From a bacterium GBS-1 (GTDB lineage Bacteria; Synergistota; GBS-1), in NCBI GenBank assembly GCA_001443005.1, contig LEKQ01000001.1, positions 454,792 through 518,791 on the forward strand: a DNA stretch of 64,000 nucleotides, given 5' to 3'. Below the pieces are notes generated by a model. The model was not told the DNA's origin. It saw only the letters and a program-made list of their open reading frames with translations, and did not search any database. Below are positions 55,284-61,934 of this stretch, piece by piece; position 1 is the stretch's first letter; every line of letters starts with the position of its first letter. A program made the translations under genes and the position numbers.

Positions 55284-55330
55284 TTAAGGCCGGAGGCCCC
55301 ACCCTTCTTAGATGGAGCCTCCGGCCTTAA
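55284..55330 (-). terminator. Intrinsic terminator in the paaK leader
   Basis: On the minus strand TTAAGGCCGGAGGC (55330-55317) pairs perfectly with GCCTCCGGCCTTAA (55297-55284), 14 base pairs around a 19-base loop, followed by ATTTTATC. It stands about 32 bases before the paaK start, between the leader ORF and the gene. Confidence 0.85.
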
Positions 55331-55343
55331 GACCAAACCCTGA

Positions 55344-55374
55344 GCTTATCCCCTACGGGGATTCAAGCCGGAGA
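55344..55374 (-). promoter_or_regulatory. Antiterminator strand and pause-type hairpin in the paaK leader
   Basis: Minus strand CTCCGGCTT (55373-55365) can pair with AAGGCCGGAG of the terminator 5' arm: nine pairs with one bulged G. The same segment lies at the end of the leader ORF and overlaps its stop. A separate strong hairpin (GCTT...ATCCCC-GTA-GGGGAT...AAGC, 55344-55368) competes for it. So the position of a translating ribosome should decide whether the terminator forms. Confidence 0.65.
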
Positions 55375-55416
55375 CCCTTTCCAACTAAAGTAAAACCTAA
55401 AGACACAAAGGTTCAT
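55363..55416 (-). CDS. Aromatic-codon leader peptide of paaK
   Basis: A 17-residue ORF (MNLCVFRFYFSWKGSPA) that starts at the ATG at 55416, five bases after AAGG, and ends in TGA at 55365-55363. An in-frame ATG at 55428 would add MKVS but lies almost at the transcription start. Five of seven consecutive residues (F-R-F-Y-F-S-W) are aromatic, coded TTT, TTT, TAC, TTT and TGG. It has no ORF-track length and no match to a protein family; its job is probably to stall ribosomes when charged Phe/Tyr/Trp tRNAs are scarce. Confidence 0.7.
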   Translation of the reverse strand: MNLCVFRFYFSWKGSPA

Positions 55417-55439
55417 TGAAACCTTCATCTTGATTTTAA

Positions 55440-55468
55440 AGTATACCATTTACCTTTGAGTTAGTCAA
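55440..55468 (-). promoter_or_regulatory. Promoter of the paaK leader
   Basis: Minus strand TTGACT (55468-55463), 17 bases, TATACT (55445-55440). Transcription should start near 55433, just before the leader peptide. It points away from the TRAP promoter, 25 bases between the two -35 boxes. Confidence 0.8.
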
Positions 55469-55493: not shown

Positions 55494-55522
55494 TTGACAG
55501 CTTCAAGATCCTGTGGTATAAG
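55494..55522 (+). promoter_or_regulatory. Promoter of the TRAP transporter leader
   Basis: TTGACA (55494-55499), 17 bases, TATAAG (55517-55522): eleven of twelve consensus positions. The start is expected near 55529, at or within the leader ribosome-binding site, so the 5' end is uncertain by a few bases. Confidence 0.82.
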
Positions 55523-55541
55523 TTTTAAAGGAGGCGATGTT

Positions 55542-55655
55542 TTGTTGATTAGCGTAACCAGCCGTAGGAACGTTTCTTATTACGCTTATTATTACTACTA
55601 TTATCTTTATCCCGCCAGGTTGCGGGAAAGGCTGGTTGCGCTTCCTCTGAGGTAG
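55542..55655 (+). CDS. Tyrosine-rich leader peptide of the TRAP operon
   Basis: A 37-codon ORF starting at TTG (55542), seven bases after AAAGGAGG, and ending in TAG at 55653-55655. The protein begins MLISVTSRRNVS and then reads YYAYYYYYYLY: nine tyrosines in eleven codons (55578-55610), mixing TAT and TAC, which argues for selection on the amino acid rather than a DNA repeat. The rest is RLRERLVALPLR. An ATG at 55537 is out of frame and reaches a stop in three codons. It is not a known protein and should act as an attenuation leader. Confidence 0.78.
   Translation: MLISVTSRRNVSYYAYYYYYYLYPARLRERLVALPLR
55552..55641 (+). promoter_or_regulatory. Alternative pairing segments of the TRAP attenuator
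   Basis: GCGTAACCAGCC (55552-55563) pairs with GGCTGGTTGCGC (55630-55641) over 12 bases with one G-U. CCCGC/GCGGG (55611-55626) is a small hairpin between them. GGTTGCGG (55618-55625) can pair with CCGCCACC of the terminator 5' arm (55685-55692), 7 of 8 bases, as an antiterminator. These are hand-drawn pairings; no folding energies were computed. Confidence 0.55.
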
Positions 55656-55671
55656 AAACCCTCAGAAGGAA
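55642..55671 (+). promoter_or_regulatory. Hairpin around the leader-peptide stop codon
   Basis: TTCC-TCTGAGG pairs with CCTCAGA-GGAA (one bulge), and the TAG stop lies in its loop (55653-55659). A ribosome finishing the leader would hold this hairpin open. Confidence 0.5.
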
Positions 55672-55678
55672 TTGGGAC

Positions 55679-55714
55679 AAAAAGCCGCCACCTTTCCCAG
55701 GGTGGCGGCTTTTT
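55679..55714 (+). terminator. Intrinsic terminator in the TRAP leader
   Basis: AAAAAGCCGCCACC (55679-55692) and GGTGGCGGCTTTTT (55701-55714) pair perfectly over 14 bases around an 8-base loop, followed by A and TTTTT. It lies 28 bases before the dctP ATG, so the operon needs readthrough. Confidence 0.92.
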
Positions 55715-55742
55715 ATTTTTAAAATAAGGGGGGTATAAAGCA

Positions 55743-56765
55743 ATGAAAAAGCTACTACTAATAGCTGGTGTCTTGATACTCTTAATGGTGAAGGCAACAG
55801 GAATAGGGTTTGCCGCAGAAACCAAGATAAAGCTATCCTATGCGAACTTCTTCCCACCATCTCATGTTCAATCTACCCTCGCCGAAGGCTGGATAAAGGA
55901 GATAGAGAAGCGGACAAACGGTAAGGTAGAGATCACCTACTTCCCTGGAGGCTCCTTGCTCCAAGGACAAAACATATTCGAAGGCATATTAAACGGAATA
56001 GCAGATATAGGTATGTCCTGCTTCGCTTATACAAGCGGAAGGTTTCCAATAATGGAGGCGGTTGACCTTCCGCTGGGCTACCCTGATGGAGTAGTAGCAA
56101 CTAGGGTTATAAATAAGTACTACAACGCGATGAAACCCAAGGAATTATCAGAGGTTAAGGTCCTTTACCTTCACGCTCATGGACCAGGGATACTCCACTC
56201 AAAGATAAAGATTAACAGGTTAGAAGATCTAAAAGGGTTAAAGATAAGGACAACAGGTTTTAGTGCGAAGGTCGCAAAGGCACTGGGCGGAGTTCCAGTA
56301 GCTATGAGCCAAGGAATGGCCTATGAAGCCTTACAAAAGGGGATAGTTGAAGCAACCTTTACCCCAATGGAAACGCTCAAGGGCTGGAAGCAAGCGGAGG
56401 TAATAAAATACTCCATTATGTGTACAAGGATAGGATATACAACAGGTATGTACGTCATTATGAACGCAAGGAAGTGGGATAGCATGCCAGAAGATATCAA
56501 AAAGGTATTTGAAGAAGTTAGCGCAGAATGGATAGAAAAGCATGGTAAAGCCTGGGATGAAAGCGACTTGGAAGGAAAAGAGTTCACCTTAAGCTTGGGA
56601 AATGAGATCATCACCCTTCCAGATGAGGAGCACGAAAGATGGAGAAGAGCCGTAGAACCCGTGATAGATGAATATGTAAGCGAGATAGAGAAAAAGGGAG
56701 TCCCTGGAAAGGAAGCCATAGAAACCCTAAAGAGGCTTATGAAGGAGGAGAGCTCAAAGAAATGA
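55743..56765 (+). CDS. dctP: TRAP transporter substrate-binding protein (DctP type)
   Basis: Exported solute receptor of 340 residues with a signal peptide (MKKLLLIAGVLILLMVKATGIGFAAE). The mature part shows the DctP fold: KLSYANFFPPSHVQSTLAEGWIKEIEKRTNGKVEITYFPGG, DIGMSCFAYTSGRFPIMEA, the carboxylate-binding arginine region LKIRTTGFSAKVAKALGG and NARKWDSMPEDIKKVFEEVS. The family takes C4-dicarboxylates, keto acids, aromatic or other organic acids; the substrate is not set by sequence alone. Its leader carries the tyrosine attenuator. Overlaps dctQ by four bases. Confidence 0.93.
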   Translation: MKKLLLIAGVLILLMVKATGIGFAAETKIKLSYANFFPPSHVQSTLAEGWIKEIEKRTNGKVEITYFPGGSLLQGQNIFEGILNGIADIGMSCFAYTSGRFPIMEAVDLPLGYPDGVVATRVINKYYNAMKPKELSEVKVLYLHAHGPGILHSKIKINRLEDLKGLKIRTTGFSAKVAKALGGVPVAMSQGMAYEALQKGIVEATFTPMETLKGWKQAEVIKYSIMCTRIGYTTGMYVIMNARKWDSMPEDIKKVFEEVSAEWIEKHGKAWDESDLEGKEFTLSLGNEIITLPDEEHERWRRAVEPVIDEYVSEIEKKGVPGKEAIETLKRLMKEESSKK

Positions 56766-57253
56766 GAAGCTTAGGGAAGGGGCTCAACCTTATTTCTGCC
56801 TTAATCTTAGGAGCTATAACATCCCTAATATGTACCGATGTAATACTAAGGCTCTTCAGATATCCAATCCCTGGAAGCTATGATATCACTGAACTCTTGA
56901 CATCGCTCATGCTTTCCTTCGCCATATTAAGGAGCTTTCAAGATGAAGCCCAGATAAAAATAGACCTAATAGATAGGGTTCTAAAGGAAAATGAACTAAA
57001 TATGGTCAACCTATTCTCGCGTTTGGTAACCGCCTTCTTTTTAGCTATACTATCTATCAGCATGATATACTCAGGCCTTAACTCCTACATCTCCGGTGAA
57101 GTATCGATGACGCTTCGCATTCCTCTATATATATGCTATATAGCCATTGGCTTAAATGCAGGCATAGCTTCCCTAAACGAAACCCTACCGATATTAAGAA
57201 TACCTCAAGAAGCAATGACAAAACTACCAAAACTCGGGAGGGAGAGAATTTGA
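56762..57253 (+). CDS. dctQ: TRAP transporter small membrane subunit (DctQ type)
   Basis: A 163-residue protein with four hydrophobic segments and the usual DctQ flow: GKGLNLISALILGAITSLICTDVILRLFRYPIPGSYDITELLTSLMLSFAI, then a cytoplasmic part, and RLVTAFFLAILSISMIYSGLNSY with YICYIAIGLNAGIASL. It bridges the binding protein and DctM. The start overlaps dctP and the stop overlaps the dctM start (TTGA). Confidence 0.92.
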   Translation: MRSLGKGLNLISALILGAITSLICTDVILRLFRYPIPGSYDITELLTSLMLSFAILRSFQDEAQIKIDLIDRVLKENELNMVNLFSRLVTAFFLAILSISMIYSGLNSYISGEVSMTLRIPLYICYIAIGLNAGIASLNETLPILRIPQEAMTKLPKLGRERI

Positions 57254-58533
57254 CCTCTTTAACCTTTGGGGCCATAGCCATAGGATCTTTGCTCTTTCTA
57301 TTCCTTATGAAAGTCCCAGTAGGAATAGCTATGGGGCTCATAGGATTTTTAGGATTCGGAATTCTCGTTTCTTTTCCTGCCGCAATGAAGCTATTAGCGG
57401 TAGATTTCCTCTCCTCTTTTAACTCTTACACTCTCGCAGTGATACCTCTATTTGTACTGATGGGGCAGCTAGCCCATAACTCTGGAATGAGCAAAAGGCT
57501 ATACGAAGCCTCTTACAAACTATTGGGACATCTTCCAGGCGGATTAGCTATCGCCACTATATGGGCAAGCGCAGGATTTGCAGCGATATGCGGTTCAACT
57601 AACGCCTCCACAGCTACAATGGCTATGGTAGCTCTTCCTGAGATGAGAAGGTACGGTTATTCAGAGTCCTTAGCTACTGGAAGCGTAGCTGCAGGAGGAA
57701 GTTTAGGAATAATGATCCCTCCAAGCGTGATATTCGTCATATACGGAATACTCACCCAACAATCCATAGGCAAACTATTCATGGCCGGCGTTCTGCCCGG
57801 TTTGCTTCTCTCAGCCCTTTTCTCATTAGCTATATACATATGGACGAGACTAGATCCTAACATCGCTCCAAGAAGCAGTAAAAGCACCTGGAAAGAAAAG
57901 ATCCTCTCTCTTTCAAGCGCCCTCGAGGTAATAATGATCTTCCTCTTAGTCGTAGGTGGATTATTATATGGTATCTTCACACCCGTTGAGGCAGGAGCTG
58001 TAGGAACTGGTTTAATAGGAATAATCTCTCTACTAAGAGGGAATCTGTCTTGGGACGGAATTAAGCGCTCTCTTCAAGAAAGCGTCCGTATATCTTCCAT
58101 GATAATATTTGTAGTTGCAGGTGCAACAGTATTTGGGCACTTTTTAGCTATAACAAAGCTCCCTCAATCGCTCCAGGCCTGGCTTCTTGAGCTTGAAAGC
58201 TATCCGCATTTAGCCATGCTCTTCATAATAGCAGTTTATATAATTGGAGGCTGCTTTGTGGATGCTTTAGCCCTGATACTTTTAACTGTACCGATATTTT
58301 ACCCTGCGATCATCAAACTTGGTTTCGATCCAATCTGGTTTGGTGTTATGGTCGTTCTCCTAACCCAAATCGGCGTCATCACACCTCCCGTAGGAATCAA
58401 CGCTTACGTGATAAAGGGGATATTCCCAGAGATCCCCATGGAAACTATATTCAAGGGAATTACCCCCTTCTTTATATCCCTACTTTTAGGTACAATGCTA
58501 CTTATTATATTCCCTCAAATAACCCTTATGTGA
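57250..58533 (+). CDS. dctM: TRAP transporter large membrane subunit (DctM type)
   Basis: Sodium- or proton-driven transport subunit of 427 residues with about 12 hydrophobic segments. FLMKVPVGIAMGLIGFLGF, VIPLFVLMGQLAHNSGMSKRLYEASYKLLGHLPGGLAIATIWASAGFAAICGSTNASTATM, MIPPSVIFVIYGILTQQSIGKLFMAG and TQIGVITPPVGINAYV are DctM hallmarks. I chose TTG at 57250, after GGGAGGGAGAG and overlapping dctQ; the longer frame from 57133 only duplicates part of dctQ. Confidence 0.95.
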   Translation: MTSLTFGAIAIGSLLFLFLMKVPVGIAMGLIGFLGFGILVSFPAAMKLLAVDFLSSFNSYTLAVIPLFVLMGQLAHNSGMSKRLYEASYKLLGHLPGGLAIATIWASAGFAAICGSTNASTATMAMVALPEMRRYGYSESLATGSVAAGGSLGIMIPPSVIFVIYGILTQQSIGKLFMAGVLPGLLLSALFSLAIYIWTRLDPNIAPRSSKSTWKEKILSLSSALEVIMIFLLVVGGLLYGIFTPVEAGAVGTGLIGIISLLRGNLSWDGIKRSLQESVRISSMIIFVVAGATVFGHFLAITKLPQSLQAWLLELESYPHLAMLFIIAVYIIGGCFVDALALILLTVPIFYPAIIKLGFDPIWFGVMVVLLTQIGVITPPVGINAYVIKGIFPEIPMETIFKGITPFFISLLLGTMLLIIFPQITLM

Positions 58534-58581: not shown

Positions 58582-60606
58582 ATGAGGGCTTCACTGCGCT
58601 TAAAAGTGTTGGTTTTAGTCCTCGTGAGCGTGCTTGTTCCCCTTGGAGCCTCCACGTTAATGAGTTTAAAAGTTAGCAGCCAAAGTATGGAGGACCTAAG
58701 CATAAAATCCTTTAACATAATAGGCGATTTTTTATCTGATAGGATTCTCTCTTTCATAGAAGAAAAGGGTAGAAGCGTAAAGGAGTATAGCGGTAGAAGC
58801 ACTTTTCTAACAGCCATATCTATAGATATGGGGGAAAGCGCTGTAGGAGAAATGTTAAGAATTATAAGATCAGACCCATCCTTCATAGCGTTTCAGCTTT
58901 ATAAGATGAATGGAAAGCTTATAGCCACAAGTGATGAGAGCATCAAAATACCTAAAGAGACCATTGAAAAGGCGTTAAGCTTTGGAAGGGAGGATAAGCC
59001 ATTCACAAGCGACGTCTTAGATCTAGGCTTAAAAGACGAAAGGTTCGGTATAGCCCTGGTTCATCCCGTTCAGACCTTCGGAATACTTGTGGGAATCTTG
59101 CGCTTCTCAAGCGTATCCCAAATTATAAAAAGCTTAGAAGAGGAGGTAAAGGAGAAGACCGGCTTTAGTAGCGCCTACCCTTATGTAGTTAACATGAGCA
59201 AATATACTACAGTTTACCATCCTCTTCCAGAAAACGTCGGTAAAACCCTAAGCGAGCTAAACCTTAAGAGCGTAGAGAGCGATATAAGCAATAAAAGAGA
59301 GACAAGCAGGTACACCCTTCAGGGAAAGGAGAAGTTCGTAACGATAAACTACATCGAAAAGGATGATCTGAGGTTAGCCATAGCCATGGGAGTGAACATG
59401 GAAGAAATCTTAGCTCCACTCTCTCTACTTAAAAGTAAAAGCTTAATTACAGGAGGCCTAATAGCCTTGGCATTTTTGGTTCTTGGTATGCTGTTAGGTA
59501 AGAACATCGTAAACCCCATAAGAAGGCTTATGGAGTTAGCCCAAAGAGCCGCATCAGGGGATCTTTCCTTCTCCATTCCCAGACTAACCAAGGACGAGGT
59601 TGGAGAACTTTGTGTTAGTCTAAACTCTATGATGTCGTCGCTAAGAGAGGTGATTAAAAGTACTACCGAAAGAAGCCTAAAGCTAGATGAATCTTCATCA
59701 ACCCTATCGAAGATCTCGGATGAAACTGCCAAAGCAGTTTCATCCACAACTGAAAGGATAACGGAGGTAACGGAAAACACTAAAAAGCAAGTTGAAGAGC
59801 TAAACCAAGCCTCACAGGCTCTAAATGAGCTCGCCCATATAATAGAACTGACCTATAAAAACGCTCAAGCTACGAGAGCCTCTTCAACTAAAACTGAAGA
59901 AGCTTCAACAAAGATAAAGAAAGCATCTCAACACGTCATAGATAACATGATGGATATAAGGAAAGAGGTTCTCTCTACAGCGGAAGCCGTTAAAAAGCTG
60001 GGAGAGAGATCCAAAGAGATAAACCAGATAGTCGACGTAATAACGAATATAGCTGAACAAACTAACTTACTTGCTTTGAACGCAGCTATAGAGGCAGCAA
60101 GAGCCGGCGAAGCGGGAAGAGGTTTCGCAGTTGTCGCTGAAGAAGTCAGAAAGCTAGCCGAAGCATCAGCACAAGCAGCCACCCAGATATCCAAATTAAT
60201 CGATGAGATAAGAAGGGATACGGAAATCGCAGTTCAAAGCATGATAAAAAGCAGTGAAGCGGTAGAGAAAGGAGCAAGCTTAGCAGAAGAAGCAAGATCT
60301 GCAGTGGATTTCATAATATCAGCGATAAGTGAGACAAAGAGACTAATAGATGAGCTTGAAGAGGTTGTATTAAAAGAGGTCGAGACATCAGAAAAGGTAG
60401 TTAAGCTCATAAATGAGGTAAACGCAAAGGCAGAGAGAAACTATCAAGCGATTGAAGATGTATCTGCAAACGCACAAGAGATAACCGCCTCTAGCGAAGA
60501 GGTAGCAGGAGCAGCTGCTGAACTGAAAGAGATAGCGAAATCAATCAAAGAGACGATCTTAAAATTCAAGATAGAAGAATCGAGAATAAAGGAGGTTGAA
60601 GCATGA
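58582..60606 (+). CDS. Membrane methyl-accepting chemotaxis protein with extracytoplasmic sensor
   Basis: A 674-residue transmembrane receptor. Membrane segments are at ~8-28 and ~288-308; the ~260 residues between look like a Cache sensor ([60 protein letters not shown]). A HAMP linker ([23 protein letters not shown]) and the methyl-accepting coiled coil with [36 protein letters not shown] follow. It is only 48 bases after dctM, so it may guide the cell to a TRAP ligand. A possible extended -10 (TGATATACT) lies at the dctM stop, and the gene overlaps the M18 peptidase. Confidence 0.93.
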
Positions 60607-61934
60607 AGAAGAAGAGCGCATGGGAAAAGCTTTCTCCTGAAGAAAGAGAGGAAAGCTATAGGGTAGGAGAAAAGTATAAGAGTTTTCTAAACAGCGTTAA
60701 GACGGAGTGGGAAGCCATAAGGTATGCGGAAAAAGTGCTTGAAGGAAAGGCTCATAAGATATTTAAGCTGAAGGATAGGATTATAGGAATAGCGCTAAGG
60801 GGAGAGCTCCCCTTAAGAGAAGGATTAAGGATAGTTGCTGCTCACGTAGATGCACCAAGGATAGACCTTAAGGTTCATCCCCTCTATGAAAAGCACGGCA
60901 TTGCCCTATTCGAAACTCACTACTATGGAGGGATTAAGAAATATCAGTGGATGAACGTTCCATTAGCCCTTCACGGGAAAATAGTTAAAGAAGATGGTAG
61001 AATCATAGAGTGGAAGATTGGAGAAGAGGAAGGGGACCCCGCATTTGCCATACCTGACCTCGAGCCTCACCTTGCCTCCAAGCAGATGGAGAAAAGGGCC
61101 TCAGAGTTCATAGAGGGAGAAACCCTCGACATAGTAGTAGGAAACATACCCCTTGAGGAAGAAAAGGAAGAAAAGGAAAGGGTAAAGTTAAACATTCTTA
61201 AGATACTTAAGGAGAAATACGGCGTCGAGGAGGAGGACTTCGTCAGCTCAGATATAGAAGCCGTCCCAGCTTATGCCTCACGAGACATCGGCTTCGACAA
61301 GAGCATGGTGGGGGGGTATGGACAAGACGATAGAATATGCGCATTTGCTGGAATAGAAGCCCTTTTAAGGGTTGAAAAGCCGAAACACCCTATCCTACTC
61401 ATATTAGCCGATAGGGAGGAAATTGGTAGCTTTGGGATAACCGGACTAGAGTCGAACATATTAAGAAGATGGATGGTAGAGCTTCTTGAAGATTGGGAAG
61501 GAAACTCATCTAATCTAACTTTAGAAGAAACGCTATGGAAGAGCAAGGCTATCTCAGCTGACGTTCATGCCGCGGTAGACCCGCTATTTGAGGAGGTCCA
61601 CGAGCTTAAAAACTCAGCGCTACTCGGTTATGGAATCACGATCTCACGATTCACGGGCGTTAGAGGAAAAGCTGGGGGAAGCGAAGCAGATGCAGAGTTC
61701 ACCGCCTGGATAAGAAAACTGTTTAACGAAAACAACGTTCCTTGGCAAGCAGCTGAGCTAGGAAAAGTCGATGAGGGCGGAGGCGGAACCGTAGCTAAAT
61801 TCTTAGCGAGATTCGGAATAGAGGTTATAGACTGCGGACCACCTTTATTAAGCATGCACTCTCCCTTCGAGATCTCAAGCAAAGCCGACCTGTTCTCAGC
61901 GATAAAGGGATATAAGGTTTTCTTTGAAAGCTAG
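60603..61934 (+). CDS. M18-family aminopeptidase
   Basis: Cytosolic dinuclear zinc aminopeptidase of 443 residues that removes acidic or other N-terminal residues. The metal and catalytic residues follow the M18 plan: [74 protein letters not shown] and [16 protein letters not shown]. It fits a peptide-fermenting life style. The ATG overlaps the chemoreceptor stop by four bases (ATGA). Its end is three bases from the convergent mlaD. Confidence 0.93.

Follow-up and report, generated by a model that had tools for sequence, protein, structure and literature searches.

A probable tyrosine-codon transcription attenuator upstream of a TRAP transporter operon in the Synergistota bacterium GBS-1

The genes dctPQM of the bacterium GBS-1 are preceded by a leader that we very probably can regard as a ribosome-mediated transcription attenuator of the classical type, one that reads charged tRNA-Tyr. 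Judging from the sequence and its relatives, a shortage of tyrosine at the ribosomes is probably what turns the transporter on. The preliminary description of the window (the whole stretch of 64,000 nucleotides analysed here) had noted an order of elements like that of trp, his and phe leader attenuation. That reading is now supported by conservation of the leader in four genomes, by compensatory changes in three helices and by a paralogue of the same RNA upstream of aroE.

The leader module and its conservation

The module occupies positions 55494 to 55720, between paaK on the minus strand and the divergent dctP on the plus strand, and its parts are listed in Table 1. The coordinates and counts first given for the promoter, the ribosome-binding site, the TTG-started open reading frame, the nine Tyr codons in eleven and the terminator 28 bases before dctP were all right, the 28 bases being the distance from the end of the terminator stem to the dctP ATG at 55743. 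A simple promoter scan had missed the promoter solely because it required a T at the final base of the -10 box. The GGAGG motif starts within about 10 bases of the TATAAG box, so the predicted transcript begins at or beside its own ribosome-binding site, which would lie at the extreme 5' end. The leader reading frame would encode (M)LISVTSRRNVSYYAYYYYYYLYPARLRERLVALPLR*, and the other two frames across it are closed or lack a usable start. The regulatory codons read TAT TAC GCT TAT TAT TAC TAC TAT TAT CTT TAT.

Table 1. Features of the leader region, the flanking genes and the paralogous copies. Positions are those of the window, except where a locus (L) is given
Feature	Position	Strand	Basis
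Sigma-70 promoter: TTGACA (55494-55499), spacer of 17 nt, TATAAG (55517-55522)	55494-55522	+	Sequence
Shine-Dalgarno GGAGG, 7 nt 5' of TTG 55542	55530-55534	+	Sequence
Leader ORF, 37 codons; start TTG 55542 or in-frame TTG 55545, stop TAG 55653-55655	55542-55655	+	
Regulatory codons, 9 Tyr in 11	55578-55610	+	Sequence; Tyr run conserved in L017, L025 and L027
P1, 5' strand AGCGTAACCAGCC, pairing with 55630-55642 and enclosing the Tyr codons	55551-55563	+	Fold; covariation
P1, 3' strand GGCTGGTTGCGCT	55630-55642	+	Fold; covariation
P2 hairpin CCCGC CAGGTT GCGGG, adjoining the Tyr codons on the 3' side and masking the antiterminator strand	55611-55626	+	
Antiterminator 5' strand GGGAAAGGCTGG, common to P2 and P1	55624-55635	+	
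P3 hairpin with the leader stop codon inside; sequence varies among species	55643-55670	+	Fold
Intrinsic terminator, 14 perfect pairs (stem 55679-55714) and T-rich tract	55679-55720	+	Compensatory pair among relatives
Antiterminator 3' strand CCACCTTTCCC, overlapping terminator 5' arm and loop	55688-55698	+	Identical in 7/7 copies
dctP, TRAP solute-binding protein, aromatic-acid-like group	55743-56765	+	PF03480; structural relatives
dctQ, TRAP small permease subunit	56762-57253	+	PF04290
dctM, TRAP large permease subunit, start approximate	57214-58533	+	TIGR00786 above cutoff; PF06808
Methyl-accepting chemotaxis protein (MCP), probably same operon	58582-60606	+	Follows dctM in G002 and G003
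M18 aminopeptidase, overlapping the end of the MCP gene	60603-61934	+	Order kept in G002
Promoter of the divergent paaK leader, TTGACT-17-TATACT	55440-55468	-	
paaK leader ORF MKVSMNLCVFRFYFSWKGSPA* (FRFYFSW)	55363-55428	-	Single genome only
Terminator-like hairpin 5' of paaK	55284-55330	-	
Paralogous scaffold copies with W/F/Y-rich leaders, 5' of aroE-aroD	L082:3643-3817; L083:5865-5694 (-); L084:9423-9254 (-)		

When up to two mismatches were allowed, the Tyr pattern was matched once in the 64 kb and not at all in 100 shuffles. Leader-size reading frames with at least 8 identical residues in 11 occurred 0.1 times per block-shuffled 64 kb. The RNA from 55529 to 55742 has a minimum free energy of -81.4 kcal/mol (z = -4.6), lower than that of all 200 shuffles. 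In an Rfam scan of the window only tRNAs reached the threshold; Thr_leader and Phe_leader scored 24.8 and 22.1 bits, respectively, vs 55, and the T-box riboswitch gave no match in the window.

The class to which GBS-1 belongs is represented by four genomes: that of the window itself (G000, 98.5% complete), 42_11 (G001), G002 and G003. Each of them has one close dctP orthologue (69 to 81% identity), and in all four the whole module precedes it, with promoter, Shine-Dalgarno sequence, Tyr run, antiterminator strands and terminator. TTGACA and TATAA[GA] are kept throughout at a spacing of 17 to 18 nt, and a G-rich Shine-Dalgarno sequence is found at the equivalent position in the relatives. The leaders, whose peptides are MLISVTSRRNVSYYAYYYYYYLYPARLRERLVALPLR, MLMVTSAASEKVYYYAYYYFYYYSPPEGGKGWLRKG, MIINAVSLKDKSYCVYYYYYYYLKPAKLRERLAALLLR and MLSQSAASKLHSFGYRYYYYYLKPARMRERLAVLTMG, contain 9, 9, 8 and 6 Tyr codons, in which third bases are swapped synonymously and TAT and TAC interchange freely. 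The run is thus conserved as codons and not merely as DNA, and what the relatives display is the opposite of a terminator kept after its Tyr codons have been lost. In 42_11 the GGGAAAGGCTGG RNA is unchanged but is read in a different frame, and the distal peptide is unrelated. This indicates separate reasons for keeping the Tyr run on the one hand and the RNA strands on the other. Outside the four genomes, this dctP (E <= 1e-40) is absent from the rest of the 188 genomes of the phylum, and such a leader is missing from all 15 other DctP-like matches in the GBS-1 genome.

Alternative RNA structures and the proposed switch

The alternative stems that had been claimed for the leader could be defined, and they were tested by folding. 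P1 is a long-range stem of 13 bp, and P1 and P2 jointly mask GGGAAAGGCTGG, the strand that forms the antiterminator when it pairs with CCACCTTTCCC. Folding and covariation indicate that the antiterminator is exclusive with the terminator, and that P1/P2 is a third structure that hides the antiterminator. In an alignment of seven sequences, which are the four TRAP leaders and the three aroE copies described below, pairing holds in 97.3% of the cells of P1, P2 and the terminator. Seven pairs in these helices have changed on both sides, compared to a shuffled mean of 2.1 (0 of 500 shuffles reach 7) and to 0 or 1 in slid controls. Compensatory changes affect 5 of the 13 pairs of P1 in the seven sequences, and the four TRAP sequences by themselves hold 4 compensatory pairs, against 1.0. 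The GGGAAAGGCTGG 12-mer is identical in six of the seven copies, the G002 aroE copy having one C-to-T difference. The antiterminator duplex has an energy of -21.3 to -23.7 kcal/mol in the seven copies, and only 1 to 20 of 1000 shuffles are as low.

The effect of a ribosome placed on the Tyr codons depends on what is allowed to pair around it. Under the usual assumption, by which RNA 5' of the stalled ribosome is barred from pairing, the probability of the antiterminator is 0.77 to 1.00 for stalls at Tyr or Phe codons in all four TRAP leaders, every Tyr codon included. Once P1 is permitted to form around the ribosome, stalls at the Tyr codons of the window, and at most of those in the relatives, no longer yield a predicted antiterminator. 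The fold with a ribosome footprint that had been proposed as a check therefore gives the expected antiterminator when cross-ribosome pairing is barred, and does not give it for the window sequence when such pairing is permitted. The short linkers would make closure of P1 around a stalled ribosome strained. The 42_11 aroE copy reaches an antiterminator probability of just 0.33 to 0.57. In ribosome-free nascent RNA, P1/P2 prevail in three species, and G002 prefers the antiterminator. In full-length RNA the terminator is thermodynamically favoured in every case, which means that the switch must be kinetic and decided during transcription. Known attenuators also take their decision during transcription (PMC1183508).

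We propose the following course of events. With ample tyrosine, the first ribosome would clear the Tyr codons and stop within P3; P1 and P2 would re-form and mask GGGAAAGGCTGG, the terminator would fold, and transcription would end some 28 bases short of dctP. A shortage of charged tRNA-Tyr would make the ribosome halt on the Tyr codons, between the strands of P1 and on the edge of P2. This would free GGGAAAGGCTGG to pair with CCACCTTTCCC, which takes up the 5' arm of the terminator, so that RNA polymerase could read on into dctPQM and probably as far as the chemoreceptor and aminopeptidase genes. The induced transporter would then import an aromatic carboxylate. Four points in this scheme are inferred: that the leader is translated, that it responds to tyrosine, that pairing across a stalled ribosome is barred, and what the transporter carries.

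Paralogous and other aromatic leaders, and rival readings

A covariance model built from the four TRAP cores found one more strong match each in G000, G001 and G002, with scores of 82 to 91 bits. In a seven-sequence model, which was trained on these copies as well, they score 115 to 119 bits. The matches are copies of the same scaffold with promoters and leaders of their own, such as MRKGTASLNVWFSFNYYYFYFTWPAKLRERLAVLSLR, and the genes that come after them are aroE and aroD (TIGR00507 and TIGR01093, above cutoff). Next in line in G000, G001 and G002 are genes for a putative TctCBA-type tripartite transporter, which are followed by a gene for an IclR-type regulator. G003 has just a distant aroE (38%) and a single copy of the scaffold. 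Codons for Trp, Phe and Tyr upstream of shikimate-pathway enzymes that all three amino acids share, and for Tyr alone upstream of dctPQM, are what codon-specific control predicts, and the codon content of the leader appears to follow the function of the gene. Among the weaker matches of the covariance model (E of 1e-5 to 1e-3), two in G002 were inspected. One, C3, proved to be an ordinary terminator behind a gene and was rejected as a scaffold copy. The other, C6 (L100:1701-1588, minus strand), is a leader upstream of lysX that contains seven AAG codons for Lys and has an attenuator-like fold. Lysine genes are more commonly under the control of a lysine riboswitch.

Aromatic codons are also found upstream of the divergent paaK. 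Here the 5' arm of the hairpin can alternatively pair with GGGTCTCCGGCTT (55377-55365), a strand that meets the stop codon of the leader, and the minus-strand region from 55468 to 55284 is a candidate for a separate aromatic leader attenuator of paaK. A genome from another family of the phylum, G019 (L122:1471-1760), has a YYYYYAY leader (AAYYYYYAYRN), a promoter and a terminator upstream of a paaK that is 56% identical to that of the window. A further Tyr-run leader, MLKSFVAGFVYAYYYYYESGPVRMPGL (VYAYYYYYESGPVRMPGL), is present with a strong terminator in G097 (L112, reverse strand from about 873; L124:4359-2911, minus strand), where the gene downstream belongs to the tryptophanase/tyrosine phenol-lyase family. 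Repeats of TAT and TAC between dnaA and dnaN in several genomes (L051 and L053 to L057) look like replication-origin unwinding elements.

We have considered whether the codon run could be a chance repeat of TAT and TAC, such as a microsatellite or an unwinding element. Most of the runs of five TAY codons that were examined elsewhere in the phylum are of this kind, being dnaA-dnaN intergenic repeats, low-complexity or coding sequence. Among the runs examined, the combination of a start codon, a short reading frame and a terminator occurs only in this class, in G019 and in G097. In addition, the species of this class have kept the Tyr codons along with the RNA, and on this conservation and the shuffle counts we rejected the chance repeat, to which we give practically no credence. 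The possibility that the attenuator senses leucine is almost refuted. It arises because TAY repeats read in the +2 frame always give Leu (TTA or CTA), so that third-base mixing cannot discriminate between the two amino acids. For this reason the statement in the preliminary description that mixed use of TAT and TAC shows that the peptide matters was too strong. The Tyr reading itself holds, as the Shine-Dalgarno sequence, the start and the stops favour it: three species lack a start codon in the +2 frame, which in G002 is closed, 12 codons long and equipped with an internal TTG but no Shine-Dalgarno sequence. The aroE leaders, too, read W, F and Y in the frame that carries the Shine-Dalgarno sequence and the start. 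On this evidence the Leu frame was rejected.

Terminators between genes are common, and the present one could be constitutive, with a Tyr-rich reading frame that is irrelevant or is a small-protein gene, and with dctPQM fed by read-through or from an internal promoter. We think this very unlikely. The terminator sits between the promoter and dctP and would, with a single transcript start, silence the operon; moreover, promoter, Shine-Dalgarno sequence, Tyr run, two pairs of alternative strands and terminator are conserved together. A programmed arrest of the nascent chain in the manner of TnaC, in which an aromatic-rich peptide or free tyrosine rather than a lack of charged tRNA stalls the ribosome, is unlikely too, even if it deserves slightly more thought. 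For the sensing of tRNA a shorter codon run would do, and the tryptophanase-family gene of G097, which is likely catabolic, also has a Tyr-run leader. The leader of the tryptophanase operon resembles the present one in that a leader peptide governs genes connected with aromatic amino acids. TnaC, however, is an arrest peptide that senses free Trp, whereas the peptide described here is poorly conserved beyond the Tyr run and is accompanied by an intrinsic terminator with an antiterminator. The sequence around the run varies by species and its distal part lies in another frame in 42_11, unlike arrest peptides; the leader peptides share the Tyr run alone and show no conserved arrest residues of the TnaC type. 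The aroE paralogue, furthermore, mixes W, F and Y, and aroE and aroD are biosynthetic. Attenuation through charged tRNA-Tyr is the reading that we retain.

Relation to known systems, the operon and a possible substrate

The trp, his and pheA attenuators of E. coli are similar to the present leader in having a promoter and a short reading frame with a run of codons for one amino acid, in forming a 1:2 hairpin, a 2:3 antiterminator and a 3:4 terminator, and, by the mechanism proposed here, in terminating when translation is fast or absent. The differences are that the codons here are for Tyr, that a TRAP transporter would be controlled and that the scaffold has been duplicated upstream of aroE with other codons. 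Furthermore, the regulatory codons are inside strand 1 in the E. coli leaders, whereas here they form the loop of the long-range stem P1. By codon content the known leader that comes nearest, above all to the aroE copy, is C. glutamicum aroR, also an aromatic-codon leader attenuator. It precedes aroF, contains Phe-Tyr-Phe and responds to Phe, Tyr availability being without effect (PMC11802643), and it differs from the present leader in having no Tyr-only run and no transporter. In the open-access literature, to which the search was confined, neither a TRAP transporter under attenuation nor a leader with a Tyr run was found; for TRAP transporters this agrees with the preliminary description. 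If the proposed mechanism is true, this leader would, as far as found, be the first that attenuates by Tyr codons alone, and dctPQM the first TRAP operon governed by ribosome-mediated attenuation. With two codon programs on one RNA scaffold, the paralogous pair amounts to a natural experiment in which the role of the regulatory codons is directly testable.

The genes dctP, dctQ and dctM encode a complete DctP-type TRAP transporter, with all three Pfam families above their cutoffs, and the operon probably continues into the genes for the chemoreceptor and the M18 aminopeptidase. The codon run would name the amino acid that the cell links to this uncharacterised transporter, and so offers a hint of its substrate class. 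In both sequence and fold, the latter compared with a predicted model of modest confidence (mean pLDDT 63.6), the nearest relatives of DctP in the PDB are 4n6d (ligand not named in the output), Dde_0634 (4nap) and TarP proteins. The TarP relatives were solved with coumarate, caffeate, ferulate, cinnamate or 4-hydroxyphenylacetate. The aromatic-acid TRAP transporters TarPQM and Dde_0634 (7nsw, 7nqg and 4nap) are the closest solved likenesses with a named ligand, at an identity of about 24 to 34%, and no attenuation is described for them in the papers found. The next relatives are marine proteins 'specific for aromatic acid ligands'. We take the ligands in 4nap and 4pgn to be tryptophan or indole compounds. 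TRAP transporters are known to bind indole acids and zwitterionic amino acids (PMC5812351, PMC4646407). By analogy with these proteins, DctPQM may import an aromatic carboxylate, either tyrosine or one of its precursors, for example 4-hydroxyphenylacetate or 4-hydroxyphenylpyruvate.

In the whole genome of GBS-1, prephenate dehydrogenase (TyrA; PF02153) and prephenate dehydratase (PheA; PF00800) were not detected, and chorismate synthase is present. Both prephenate enzymes were found in the three other genomes. Such a gene content likely means that GBS-1 is auxotrophic for Phe and Tyr or makes them by an alternative aryl-acid route. A route of this kind, via PaaK and an indolepyruvate-type oxidoreductase, occurs in some anaerobes and archaea, and it would fit here. 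The attenuator, too, hints that Phe and Tyr may be made from aryl acids. We see about an even chance that all of this belongs together: a single scaffold that was duplicated and re-programmed through the codon run in its loop (Tyr for dctPQM and W/F/Y for aroE-aroD) would, with the independent FRFYFSW attenuator of paaK, constitute an aromatic regulon governed by leader peptides, in a bacterium without detectable PheA and TyrA that perhaps makes Phe and Tyr from imported aryl acids. The MCP and M18 genes (58582-61934) lie close behind dctM, and transport, chemotaxis and peptide breakdown may share control by tyrosine.
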